Position numbers and translations under genes: made by a program. The notes beneath the pieces are model-generated. The model ran no database searches and was not told where the DNA came from. It worked only from the letters and a program-made list of their open reading frames with translations. DNA of 45,294 nt from Syntrophomonas sp. DTU018 (GTDB lineage Bacteria > Bacillota > Syntrophomonadia > Syntrophomonadales > Syntrophomonadaceae), in NCBI GenBank assembly GCA_001513155.1, contig LFSR01000030.1:33240-78533 (forward strand), given 5' to 3'. Each line of letters begins with the position of its first letter. Positions within the stretch are counted from its first letter, which is position 1. Of this stretch, positions 990 to 37,889 are shown piece after piece.

Positions 990-1748
990 CTATTCCTCCA
1001 GGATAAACCTCCAGGCGCAGAACCATTCCTGGGGATGTTCGTCAGGAGGACAGCCTACACATTCGGTGCGAATCCGGTCATCGATGCCCCAGGCAAAGCG
1101 GCTGTATTCCACCAGGCCGGCTGATTTGCAGGGATAGTCATCCAGGCCTTTGCGCTGGCGGGCCGATTGCACCCGGCAGTCATTCATCTGAAAGATGATG
1201 CTGGTGGGGCTTTCGTCGATAATAGACTGTTTGTTGATGCGAGAGTACATGCGATAGCCCAGAGCCTGTTTGAGCCCTTCCAGACCTGGCCTTTCCGGTA
1301 AGCCCAGGAAACTTTTAATGAAGCGGGCTTCAACCTGGGAAAAACGATTCCAGCATGAATCATTGCAGCGTTTGGCATCGTTCATGCCATAGGCTCTCTC
1401 AATGGCCTGAAACCAGAGGCCATCCATGGCCAGCCAGTTTTTGCCTATCTCTCCGGTCAATTCCAGAAGCTTTTCCCGGGGCAGGTCCAGCAGGGGCTTG
1501 GGAATCCCGTCTTGGACTTCAAAACCCAGAACTTTGCCCAGGCGCTGTATCTCAATACGGCTGCTCTGCTGGGTAACCTGTTCCAGTATATCCAGGGCCC
1601 GTTCCATTCCTAACTGGTGTTCGGTTTCCCTGAACCACAGGGTATGGTGGATGTTCATGCGGTGTATCATAGACAGGATAAAGCGGGCCAGATCCTCCTG
1701 GCTTAAATCTTCTAACTGCTGGAATTGAGCTTCGCGGTCTGCTGCCAT
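990..1748 (-). CDS. Conserved cytosolic protein, DUF6125-like
   Basis: A 252-residue soluble protein without signal peptide or membrane segment. It is rich in Trp and Cys, with a central RCNDSCWNRF segment and a C-terminal block of paired cysteines (ECVGC...WFCAWRF) that could bind a metal or form a hydrophobic pocket. The pattern resembles proteins annotated as DUF6125 in Clostridia and Desulfobacterota; this is from memory and no function is established. The ATG start at 1748 has a GGAGG-like site upstream on the minus strand. It is monocistronic and convergent with hypB. Confidence 0.75.
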   Translation of the reverse strand: MAADREAQFQQLEDLSQEDLARFILSMIHRMNIHHTLWFRETEHQLGMERALDILEQVTQQSSRIEIQRLGKVLGFEVQDGIPKPLLDLPREKLLELTGEIGKNWLAMDGLWFQAIERAYGMNDAKRCNDSCWNRFSQVEARFIKSFLGLPERPGLEGLKQALGYRMYSRINKQSIIDESPTSIIFQMNDCRVQSARQRKGLDDYPCKSAGLVEYSRFAWGIDDRIRTECVGCPPDEHPQEWFCAWRFILEE

Positions 1749-1961
1749 TATGCATTCCTCCTAATCAATACCGTTCCCAAAGAGTGTTGGTTAAATATTA
1801 GTTTCTCGTAAAGGGCGGCAGTTTCCTTGTACAAATATTTGCAAAATATTTCTGCTTGGCGACATAAAAGGAATAGGGCCAAACCCCGCCAATAATGCCG
1901 GGAGCAAAAAAAGAATAAACTCCCTGAAAGATACCTTGTGACCTTAATATTAAGAGGTGGC

Positions 1962-8498: not shown

Positions 8499-8650
8499 GA
8501 GAGTGTCAAAAAACTAGCTAAAAGAGATCGCCACGTCGCTACGCTCCTCGCGATGACATACCAAAAGGCCACCTTATGTGTCATTGCGAGCCCCGGAGGG
8601 GCGTGGCAATCTCGAATGTCCAACTATTAATAAGCTTTTTTACACGCTGC
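8499..8650. repeat. Palindromic repeat island B between two terminator copies
   Basis: About 152 bp. The left terminus is GAGAGTGTCAAAAAACTAGC and the right terminus AAGCTTTTTTACACGCTGC, which are imperfect inverted copies. Inside are GATCGCCACG...CGCGATGACA and TCATTGCGAGCCCC...GGCAATCTCGA units. The flanking terminator hairpins are identical, as expected for a target duplication. Confidence 0.85.
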
Positions 8651-14373: not shown

Positions 14374-16041
14374 TCAAGCTGAGGATTGAAGAATAGTGCC
14401 GAAATCGCCTACCACCACATCTCCTGCAGGGGAACAGGTTATGCCGTAGAGGAAATGATCAGTGGCGGTGTTCTGTACTTCCCATTGAGTGCCATCAATG
14501 GAGTAAGCTACTTTCCCCGGGGTGCCGCTTAAAGCAAAGCGGTCCTGGCAGAACACTACATGCAGCCAGAAGGGGGAATTCTCACCTACTCGGAGGATGG
14601 TCCAGCTGCTGCTGTCCGGGGAAGTCATCACCAGGCCGGAATCGCCGGCGGCAACAAACAGACCCTGACCATAGGCAATACTTTGCAGTGATTCAAAACC
14701 AGGTTCCACTGCCGCCTGCTGCCAGTCCTGGCCATTGGGAGAAACCAGTATGATACGGTTGTTGCCCACCGCCACAAAGCGATCCTCCCCAAAAGCCACC
14801 CCATTAAGTGTAGTGGTGGTACCCGATTCCGTTACCTGCCAGTTTCTTCCGTCCGGGGAGGTTAGGATAATACCCTTTTCCCCCACGACAACAAACTGCC
14901 CATTTCCAAAAGTTACGGCTCTAAGCCGGTTGGTTAAGGGAACTGTCTCCTGGTACCAGCTGACTCCATTGGCGGATCTGAGTATGGTCCCGTTATCTCC
15001 CACCGCAATGAAGGTTTGATGGGCATGAGTCACACCCCACAGGTGGCTGGTGGTGCCGCTGTCCCTGGCTTGCCACCTGACTCCATCGGGAGAGGTCAAT
15101 ATGGTTCCGTTATTGCCGACTGCCACCAGCATGTCAGCCCCGAAGACTACATCGTGGAGTTCTTCATAAACACCGGAGGTCTGCCTGGTCCAACTGGATC
15201 CATCTGGAGAAGTGAGTATTATTCCGCCTAGGCCGGTGACAACAAATAGATCAGGACTGCTGGCGATGCTTAAGGATAAAAGCAGGTCATCAGTAAGCTG
15301 CACCGTCCATTCCCGGCCATCGGCGGAAGTCAGCACCACACCGGTGTTAAGATCCAGGTCTCTCCCTACCGCAACGTAGAGGCCATTGCCAAAGGTCACT
15401 TCCTCTAAAAAAGCAGTACTGTGGGAAGCGACACTGCTCCAGGTTACCCCATCAGGAGAAGTCAGAATAGTGCCACCGCCGCCTACCGCTACAAACTGGC
15501 CTTGGGCATAGACTACACTGTTCAAGGGGAATCCCCCGAAAGACCCCCGGTTGGTCCAGGTGATCCCGTCCGGGGAGGTGAAGATGGATCCTCCCGTTCC
15601 CACTGCCACAAAGGTGTCATTGCCGAAAGCTACTCCCTGCAGCCAGAAAACCGTGACCCCGTTGGGGGTCCAGTTTTCACCGTCGGTGGAGGTGACTATG
15701 GTCCCCAGCTGTCCTACCGCCACATACATCCCATTGCCAAAGGCAACATCATCCAGCCAGGATGAGGTGCCTGATTCCTGGGATCGCCAGGTTACTCCAT
15801 CAGGAGAGGTAAGAATGGTTCCTTCCATTCCCACTGCTACATACAGTCCGTTGCCATAGCCGACTCCGGACAAGTAATTAGTGGTCCCGCTGTTCTGTAT
15901 AGTCCAGTTGCTGCCGTCAGAAGAGGTCATAATCGTACCGAATTGACCCGCTGCCACAAATTGTCCTTCGGCATAGGCAGCCGCCCGCAGAGCATTCCCC
16001 TGGGGAAGAGGGTTGCGCCACAGCCATTGGGTATCAGCCAT
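14374..16041 (-). CDS. Fourteen-repeat beta-propeller protein
   Basis: A protein of 555 residues from the ATG at 16041, or 563 from a GTG at 16065 that lacks a clear ribosome site; GGTGA precedes the ATG. It consists of tandem repeats of about 40 residues with the pattern FGNGxYVAVGxxGTILTSPDGxxW. I count 13 full [ST]SxDGxxW-type motifs. The C-terminal strand GDFGTILQSSA can complete a fourteenth with the N-terminal TQWLWRN, so two seven-bladed propellers closed by N- and C-terminal strands are plausible. No signal peptide is seen. Ycf48-like and BNR-type propellers look similar. The partner or ligand is unknown. Confidence 0.82.
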   Translation of the reverse strand: MADTQWLWRNPLPQGNALRAAAYAEGQFVAAGQFGTIMTSSDGSNWTIQNSGTTNYLSGVGYGNGLYVAVGMEGTILTSPDGVTWRSQESGTSSWLDDVAFGNGMYVAVGQLGTIVTSTDGENWTPNGVTVFWLQGVAFGNDTFVAVGTGGSIFTSPDGITWTNRGSFGGFPLNSVVYAQGQFVAVGGGGTILTSPDGVTWSSVASHSTAFLEEVTFGNGLYVAVGRDLDLNTGVVLTSADGREWTVQLTDDLLLSLSIASSPDLFVVTGLGGIILTSPDGSSWTRQTSGVYEELHDVVFGADMLVAVGNNGTILTSPDGVRWQARDSGTTSHLWGVTHAHQTFIAVGDNGTILRSANGVSWYQETVPLTNRLRAVTFGNGQFVVVGEKGIILTSPDGRNWQVTESGTTTTLNGVAFGEDRFVAVGNNRIILVSPNGQDWQQAAVEPGFESLQSIAYGQGLFVAAGDSGLVMTSPDSSSWTILRVGENSPFWLHVVFCQDRFALSGTPGKVAYSIDGTQWEVQNTATDHFLYGITCSPAGDVVVGDFGTILQSSA

Positions 16042-16193
16042 ATTTAAAATCACCGCTTTCTGCACAAATTTTATTGCCGGTACTTTTTACTGGTAACCGA
16101 GCAGAATATAATCGGTTCCATTAACTATGTATGCTAACCGGCATCACTTTGGTGATTTTTTCTCGCCAAAATGCAGGCGGAGCAGGAGCTTAC

Positions 16194-20727: not shown

Positions 20728-20961
20728 AAGCAGGAGTATTAGCCAAGATGCTGAAGTATTAGCCGGCTCGCTCCGGTATTCCTCGCCTGCAACCCATCGG
20801 CAAACTTTAAGTGCGAAGGGGACCGCTCGTAATTCGGCATCCATGCACTCAGTACTCGCTGCTCGAAACGTCCTGTTTCTCGCTCCCCTTCGCAGCCCTC
20901 AGTTTCGCCTTGGGTTGCAACGGCTCGTCGTAAGTCGCTCGCCCGGCTAATACTCCAGCTT
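20728..20961. repeat. Foldback repeat family 2, copy 1 (MITE-like)
   Basis: About 234 bp. The terminal AAGCAGGAGTATTAGCC is inverted at the right end as GGCTAATACTCCAGCTT. Further inward are nested inverted pairs: GCAACCC with GGGTTGC, and GCGAAGGGGA with TCCCCTTCGC. It is about 95 percent identical, by my reading, to 37609-37824. The rest of the gene-free stretch 20637-21147 shows nothing else I can name. Confidence 0.8.
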
Positions 20962-21147
20962 AAGCCCTGGGTTACTGAAGATCGGTATAGAGATTGCTGA
21001 TGACATTATAGGCGTCTTTTTGGCTTACAGGGTCCATGTTCACAGTTATAACACTAAACGGGATACTCAGAGAAAAGAGCGGTTTACACGAATTGGAATT
21101 ATAATAGTAGTTAACGGAATCAAAAAAATTGCCGATAAGGAGTTGCC

Positions 21148-33305: not shown

Positions 33306-33337
33306 GAAGGGCAGACTCTTTTTCCGCAAATAAGAAA

Positions 33338-33355
33338 GCGAGCCCGAAGGCTCGC
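33338..33355 (-). terminator. Terminator of the HesB-like selenoprotein gene
   Basis: On the minus strand GCGAGCC and GGCTCGC pair over a 4-base loop and are followed by TTTCTTATTT. It ends about 35 bp after the stop codon, supporting a real leftward gene. Confidence 0.75.
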
Positions 33356-33372
33356 CAGGATTTGGCTTGCTG

Positions 33373-33699
33373 TTAACCACAGGAGGTACAGGAGGAACAT
33401 CCTCCCATGTCCTGGTCAACTTTGGGAATAATACGGAACAGGGTCTGATCACCCCGTTTAACCGATTCCACGGTAAAACCTTGATACATATCTATCAGGG
33501 GCTGCATAACTACAAACTGGATTCCATCTATGACCTGTACCTGGTCCGATTCTCCTGGTTCATCCAGAACCAGATAAAAGGAGGCTCCCCCTCAGCCCAT
33601 GTTCATAGCAATGCGCAGGCTGTTTTTATTAATACCCTGAGCTGAGAGTACTTGCTTGATATCCTCTACCACATCGGCAGCGGCAGTAATAATCTCCAT
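33373..33699 (-). CDS. HesB-like selenoprotein (Sec at UGA codon 36)
   Basis: A 108-residue protein read continuously on the minus strand if the single in-frame UGA (33592-33594) is decoded as selenocysteine. The sequence around it is LRIAMNMG-U-GGASFYLVLDEP, the HesB/IscA-type fold with Sec at the place of the conserved Cys. This is the known HesB-like selenoprotein family (TIGR01911 as I recall). The frame stays open for 72 codons after the UGA and ends in a Cys-rich tail, GGCSSCTSCG. A candidate bacterial SECIS hairpin begins 18 nt after the UGA: CUGGUUC, loop UGGAU, GAACCAG, with a G in the second loop position. AAGGTG precedes the ATG. A role in iron-sulfur or redox chemistry is inferred. 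Ordinary gene callers miss or split it. Confidence 0.85.
33555..33573 (-). promoter_or_regulatory. Candidate bacterial SECIS element
   Basis: In the mRNA, CUGGUUC pairs with GAACCAG over the loop UGGAU. The apical loop is about 26 nt after the UGA and has G in its second and third positions, within the usual bacterial SECIS range. Confidence 0.6.
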
Positions 33700-33784
33700 A
33701 AAATCACCTTCTTAGCTGCATTTGGGGTATATTACCCCCTGGGGGTATTATACAATAAAATATTAACCGGCACAAGTAGTCACT

Positions 33785-37144: not shown

Positions 37145-37460
37145 TCAGACTGTCGAAAAAGGCCATGTAAAGAGATCGCCACGTCGCTTCGCTCCTCGCG
37201 ATGACATACCAAAAGGCCATCTTATGTGTCATGGCTGTGAAAATAGCTTCCAATTTTGTCATTGCGAGCGCGTAGCGCGTGGCAATCTCTATGGCAACTA
37301 ACGGTGTGAGTTAACAGATCGCCACGTCGCTTGGCTCCTCGCGATGACAGGCTTAAGTTTTCGTTTATCGTGGCCTGTGCTACTGGTGACAATTGCGAGC
37401 CCCGGAGGGGCGTGGCAATCTCGAACGTCTAACCGCTAAAAGACTTCTTTGACAGTCTGC
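37145..37460. repeat. Palindromic repeat island G between two terminator copies
   Basis: The left end TCAGACTGTCGAAAAAGGCC and right end GACTTCTTTGACAGTCTGC are inverted copies. Several units lie inside, including a stretch (37301-37378) nearly identical to the first 78 bases of the window. The flanking GCGCCCTTCAGGG hairpins (37129-37144 and 37461-37476) match in 15 of 16 positions. Confidence 0.82.
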
Positions 37461-37608: not shown

Positions 37609-37824
37609 GAAGCAGGAGAAATAGCCGGCTCGCTCCGGGACTCCTCGCCTGCAACACATCGGCAAACTTTAAGTGCGAAGGGGACCGCTCGTAATTCGGC
37701 ATCCATGCACTCAGTACTCGCTGCTCGAAACGTCCTGTTTCTCGCTCCCCTTCGCAGCCCTCAGCTTCGCCGTGGGTTGCAACTGCTCGTCGTACGTCCC
37801 TCGCCTGGCTAATACTCCTGCTTC
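37609..37824. repeat. Foldback repeat family 2, copy 2 (MITE-like)
   Basis: About 216 bp. The ends GAAGCAGGAG and CTCCTGCTTC are perfect inverted repeats. The core is almost identical to 20728-20961, with about nine differences in 190 bases by eye. A fragment of the first family (ATCATGGCCTGGGGCACAGG) follows at 37846-37865. Confidence 0.82.
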
Positions 37825-37889
37825 AGCGGGCGCGATGATATCGTTCATCATGGCCTGGGGCACAGGTGACAATTATGGAGGTGTACTTT

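Follow-up and report, generated by a model that had tools for sequence, protein, structure and literature searches.

The window, as we call the whole 45,294-nucleotide stretch of Syntrophomonas sp. DTU018 DNA analysed here, carries on its minus strand a reading frame that runs through one TGA codon. The initial annotation took this frame for the gene of a HesB-like selenoprotein. The locus raises the questions whether the UGA is decoded as selenocysteine, how the product is related to the known HesB-like proteins, and what its function might be. Knowledge of HesB-like selenoproteins goes back two decades; in Methanococcus maripaludis one was identified through mutagenesis and labelling with 75Se, and the function of these proteins continues to be described as unclear (PMC11097638).

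The gene and its in-frame UGA

The features of the locus are listed in Table 1. The frame and its UGA lie where the initial annotation had placed them, and the hairpin, the ribosome-binding site and the terminator are present as it described. Translation of the frame gives MEIITAAADVVEDIKQVLSAQGINKNSLRIAMNMG-U-GGASFYLVLDEPGESDQVQVIDGIQFVVMQPLIDMYQGFTVESVKRGDQTLFRIIPKVDQDMGGCSSCTSCG, in which U is codon 36, and the frame ends at TAA. The gene, hereafter hesB-Se, is probably monocistronic.

Table 1. Features of the hesB-Se locus, in window coordinates.
Feature	Position	Strand	Evidence
HesB-like selenoprotein gene, 108 codons	33373..33699	-	Sequence, homologues, IscA/SufA fold in the model
In-frame UGA, codon 36, read as selenocysteine	33592..33594	-	TGA in the homologue of every one of the 26 hesB-Se genomes of the family; UxGP-type Cys homologues have Cys here
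SECIS hairpin, 7 bp, loop UGGAU, 18 nt after the UGA	33555..33573	-	Synonymous-codon null; pairing in 44 Sec genes; lost in Cys genes
Codons for the tail GGCSSCTSCG (three Cys as CxxCxxC)	33376..33405	-	Conserved through the clade
Palindromic type-2 CsoR operator (predicted), TACCCCCAGGGGGTA	33733..33747		One of two exact TACCCN5GGGTA sites in the genome
-10 box TATAAT, last base shared with the operator	33747..33752	-	Sequence; same layout in relatives
Weak candidate -35 TTGTGC, 17-nt spacer	33770..33775	-	Sequence only; TTGTGC not reported by the consensus scan
Ribosome-binding site AAGGTGAT	33703..33710	-	Sequence
Intrinsic terminator stem	33337..33356	-	Sequence scan

Selenocysteine decoding depends on a dedicated machinery, and the genome (2.56 Mb in 59 contigs) has it. 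Matches to selA (591 bits) and selB (378 bits, over the cut-off) lie close together, selD (392 bits) itself includes a single internal TGA, and the gene for tRNA-Sec (anticodon TCA) is located on the window's own contig.

Homologues were found in 26 of 54 genomes of the same bacterial family, at 41-87% identity, their named records being Syntrophomonas sp. and Syntrophomonadaceae assemblies. All 26 are of the Sec type; the full-length copies each contain a single TGA, which always falls in the same alignment column. Whereas each close homologue has Sec at this column, Cys is found there in the homologues L063, L067 and L068. The protein sequence on both sides of the UGA is HesB-like, as had been proposed (NF038090, E=9e-13; TIGR01911, E=4e-12), though the scores are below both curated cut-offs. 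That the frame is more than chance read-through was borne out by the single TGA column in 26 family genomes and by a hairpin kept beyond what the protein demands. Because selA, selB, selD and tRNA-Sec are present, the UGA is kept in the homologues of 26 genomes and the hairpin behaves as described below, the UGA at codon 36 almost certainly encodes selenocysteine. The reading of this UGA as a true stop, or as a sequencing or pseudogene artefact with the downstream frame untranslated, draws support from nothing beyond the UGA itself; it is extremely improbable given that 26 genomes share the codon, that the protein is conserved on both sides of it and that the hairpin covaries. It is near certain that the 108-codon gene encodes a selenoprotein of 108 residues with the HesB/IscA fold, and hesB-Se of the window is a clear case of a gene that would be cut short by default annotation.

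Two family copies were imperfect. That of G046 is divided between two contigs, and in L046 (G008) the frame shifts near the end, before the Cys tail, which is readable in another frame; this apparent frameshift may be a sequencing error or recent decay.

Other elements were seen elsewhere in the window. A 219-nt repeat is present in two copies that are 93% identical (20747-20965 and 37609-37827), and the first contains a match to the TwoAYGGAY RNA (20775-20934, minus strand; 44.1 bits, gathering threshold 43 bits). A short dispersed repeat family with GATCGCCACGTCGCT(T/A)CGCTCCTCGCGATGACA occurs at 1-133, 8521-8587, 37169-37235 and 37301-37433. Positions 14374-16065 of the minus strand encode a 563-residue protein of repeated VAVGNNGTILTSPDGxxW-like units.

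The SECIS hairpin

The hairpin, CTGGTTC-TGGAT-GAACCAG, has its apical loop 25 nt from the UGA. We recoded each gene with synonymous codons at the codon usage of the family and compared the pairing of the stem. Of 182 possible stem pairs 177 were observed, against 126 ± 5 after recoding (maximum 141 in 2000 trials), and a folding-energy scan against the same null was clearly negative only in segments that contained the hairpin. This ruled out the hairpin as a mere by-product of the conserved peptide LVLDEP.

Scored over 44 distinct Sec genes, 95% of cells at the seven pairs are paired; shifting one arm by 1-3 bases lowers this to 17-46%. Changes are found on both sides, for example from C-G to T-A at pair 23-33 (22 vs 21 genes), although the 44 genes are related and their pair changes are thus not independent events. 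The loop is UGGA(U/C/A) in all 44. The five inner pairs score 4.9/5 in both Sec groups and 2.0/5 in five Cys genes. An Rfam scan around the gene gave no match, as expected because bacterial SECIS elements are gene-specific. The published model of the bacterial SECIS has a stem of 4-16 bp, a G in the first two loop positions and an apical loop 16-37 nt from the UGA (PMC13188914), and the window hairpin conforms to it with 7 bp, UGGAU and 25 nt. What had been put forward as a candidate element thus behaves as a bacterial SECIS in recoding, in pairing and in its loss from Cys genes, and we regard it as near certain that the hairpin is real.

Fold and relationship to HesB-like proteins

An AlphaFold model built with a 25-row alignment had a pLDDT of 88.6, and its top Foldseek matches were SufA (2d2a) and IscA (1r94), at E about 8e-6. 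The model has the HesB/IscA fold; Sec36 takes the place of the first ligand cysteine of IscA, and the UGA is aligned with the conserved HesB Cys. The GGCxxCxxC tail was poorly modelled, with low confidence. The initial annotation had pointed to this Cys-rich tail as a further feature; it is present as described, but it is not peculiar to this protein, being conserved across the clade and found in variant form in canonical members. In a Pfam search the protein had no match at E ≤ 0.01, and a single-protein search of genome contigs with it found no relative.

Among all families the best scores were those of the two models of HesB-like selenoproteins, TIGR01911 (HesB_rel_seleno; 46.6 bits, cut-off 66.35) and NF038090 (48.4 bits, cut-off 85), yet both are below the cut-off. 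We considered excluding the protein from the family on the TIGR01911 score and dropped this, since five canonical UxGP proteins used as comparators also fall under the model cut-offs, which are therefore a poor divider. The missing Pro and the tree divide instead. HesB-like selenoproteins are listed with the motif U-x-G-P (PMC13188914), whereas the window protein has UGGA and its clade UGG[AMSVTI]. In the tree the window clade forms one group (99/98 support), although few columns were available and the deeper forks are unsure. With the known HesB-like selenoproteins the window protein shares the fold, Sec at the conserved HesB Cys, the place of the SECIS and a Cys-rich tail. Its earlier assignment to a known family therefore stands, with the qualification that, judged from motif and tree, it is a separate clade of that family without U-x-G-P.

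Outside the bacterial family, many HesB-like genes with one TGA were present in 398 sampled genomes from the phylum, mostly with GUGGP or GUSGP; the Cys homologues have GCGGP or GCSGP and align their Cys at the UGA column. Four genomes (G025, G027, G029 and G030) have a second TGA-containing HesB-like gene besides that of the window type, and the gene L061 in G025 has GUGGP and a CsoR-like operator of its own. Two relatives of the window protein, L049 (G041) and L050 (G053), lack both Sec and Cys at the UGA column (GFGD and DLDG), and the part seen shows no Cys tail; they are possibly a branch with another function.

The fold and the position of Sec36 suit a role as an A-type Fe-S carrier like IscA, SufA or ErpA, with Sec replacing one cluster ligand and the promoter operator described below merely tuning carrier supply. 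No other HesB-type protein was found in the genome by a search with NF038090, which also matches E. coli and B. subtilis, and this too would fit a carrier. Similarity to the A-type carriers is, however, confined to the fold and weak in sequence: the ligand set of these proteins is a Cys plus a C-terminal CGC, and the window protein has Sec36 and CxxCxxC instead. Against a carrier it also counts that hesB-Se is absent from about half of the genomes of the family, many nearly complete ones included, and that a M. maripaludis mutant with a disrupted hesB-like gene was unimpaired in nitrogen fixation (PMC11097638). We consider this role quite improbable.

A probable CsoR-type operator shared with csoR-trxA

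The most informative clue to function is one that the initial annotation lacked, a CsoR-type operator in the promoter. The promoter carries TATAATACCCCCAGGGGGTA, in which the last T of the -10 box begins the palindrome TACCCCCAGGGGGTA. Type-2 CsoR operators have the form TAC-N9-GTA with G-tracts, as in Streptomyces copZA2, TACCCCCTAGGGGTA (PMC3902906), and the window site has this form.

Two exact TACCC-N5-GGGTA sites occur in the 2.56-Mb genome, one in the hesB-Se promoter and one just upstream of the only CsoR-family gene (PF02583, 93.7 bits, cut-off 22.8), so that the repressor gene bears the same site at its own promoter. This second site lies 24 bases before the PF02583 match and 5 bases from the start codon of the gene. 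Since the control pattern, the reversed sequence, was found 7 times, the sites are not enriched in number; what matters is the location of both and their recurrence. The CsoR-type protein, encoded at 1483-1752 (minus strand) of locus L141, has 89 residues, an RLxR motif and a Cys...His...Cys set, and the next gene is trxA, encoding thioredoxin.

The 15-mer form TACCC-N5-GGGTA precedes most homologues, and the arrangement of -10 box and operator is the same in relatives. Among the 26 hesB-Se genomes, 20 have both the operator and a CsoR gene, 4 have neither, 2 (G024 and G026) have the operator with no CsoR gene detected, and none has CsoR only (Fisher P=0.001, although the 4 genomes with neither are one genus and the association is weaker than P suggests). 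The operator group includes G017, whose hesB-Se and csoR promoters both have a half-site of the variant form TACCT.

At the loci examined, the CsoR proteins of the family were of two types. One type (YC...KHMxSC and similar) stands ahead of copZ-like or copA-like genes and is without the operator; the genomes that have it (G014, G022, G023, G048 and G050-G052) lack hesB-Se, G022 having also a second csoR with the operator. The other type is followed by trxA, and the operator is nearly always present. In a separate family (f14; G073, G157 and G190), csoR-trxA and a canonical UxGP hesB-Se each carry the site. The f14 repressor has Tyr for the His metal ligand that is kept in the window's family; this residue, four before the second Cys, is His in CsoR and not His in CstR. 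Other canonical hesB-Se genes have related sites in some cases and none in others.

Like the CsoR copper operon and the CstR persulfide operon, the system has a type-2 operator and an apparently autoregulated CsoR-family gene. It differs from both in its thioredoxin partner, in having a selenoprotein as second target, and in that neither an efflux pump nor a rhodanese is found at the two sites in the genome. Taken together, the sites suggest that the CsoR-type protein is likely to control hesB-Se and csoR-trxA jointly through the predicted operator; G024 and G026, with an operator but no CsoR gene detected, speak against it. No link between CsoR and HesB-like selenoproteins was found in the literature searched, which returned mainly unrelated work.

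Further operator sites in relatives

Many exact sites elsewhere are inside genes and are probably due to chance. Sites in promoter position precede genes for a Tat-type 4Fe-4S protein with a cytochrome b-like partner (G002, G011 and G022), a PF04143 TsuA/YeeE-like transporter (G010), a TrxB-like reductase (G009) and TldD-like proteins (G008 and G017; named by eye). At L179 (G010:C18) and L180 (G011:C20) the operator is followed by the gene of a CC/Se-motif selenoprotein (DLCSU; NF041239, 35 bits, cut-off 40) and then by DsbD_TM. The common theme of these promoter sites is the redox chemistry of thiols, sulfur and selenium, not copper efflux.

Proposed signal and function

The reading we favour, with a confidence slightly above even, is that hesB-Se is controlled together with thioredoxin by a CsoR-type repressor that answers a reactive sulfur or selenium signal, and that its product provides a selenol centre. 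The CsoR-like repressor, with its Cys/His/Cys sensor, would keep the hesB-Se and csoR-trxA promoters off until reactive sulfur or selenium species, for example persulfides or polysulfides, modify its thiols and cause its release. Repressor, thioredoxin and selenoprotein would then be produced together. Sec36 and the flexible CxxCxxC tail may form a selenol/thiol centre for the uptake or reduction of sulfane sulfur, or for metal binding, that thioredoxin recycles; that Sec36 comes close to the tail cysteines is a proposal, because the tail has low confidence in the model. By analogy, we infer the nature of the signal from known repressors: the CsoR paralogue CstR responds to persulfide, and sulfite, selenite and tellurite modify it (PMC5016687), and the CsoR regulon of B. 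subtilis is induced by polysulfanes (PMC6943732).

Copper is a serious rival as the signal, because the repressor of the window's family keeps the Cys/His/Cys set of copper CsoR, also in its csoR-trxA type, and this counts against a sulfur or selenium signal. In that case the repressor would be a Cu(I) sensor, and the selenoprotein would, with its Sec and the three Cys of its tail, bind Cu(I) or shield Fe-S assembly from copper. The operator is identical in form to copper CsoR sites. Moreover, the exact composite TATAATACCCCNAGGGGGTA has 31 occurrences in 257 Gb of species genomes; six are at hesB-Se genes of the family, and elsewhere it precedes one csoR gene and a few genes that by eye look copper-related. 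On the other hand, neither of the two exact sites of the genome is at copA or copZ, the copZ/copA-linked type of CsoR in the family has no such operator and every genome in which it was seen lacks hesB-Se, the partner gene is trxA, sulfur and redox genes stand at the sites in relatives, and the f14 repressor has no His. On balance a copper-responsive regulon, the main rival, seems unlikely.

Returning to the sulfur/selenium signal, we suggest more tentatively, at somewhat less than even confidence, that reactive sulfur or selenium species are the signal for the thioredoxin-linked CsoR-family repressor, and that this repressor controls HesB-Se in many genomes and, in two relatives, also the unrelated CC/Se-motif selenoprotein with its DsbD-like partner. 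If this is true, there is a repressor regulon built around selenol proteins, and HesB-like selenoproteins have a physiological role within it. The operator shared with csoR-trxA would tie them to thiol, sulfur or selenium stress and offers a first lead to their function.
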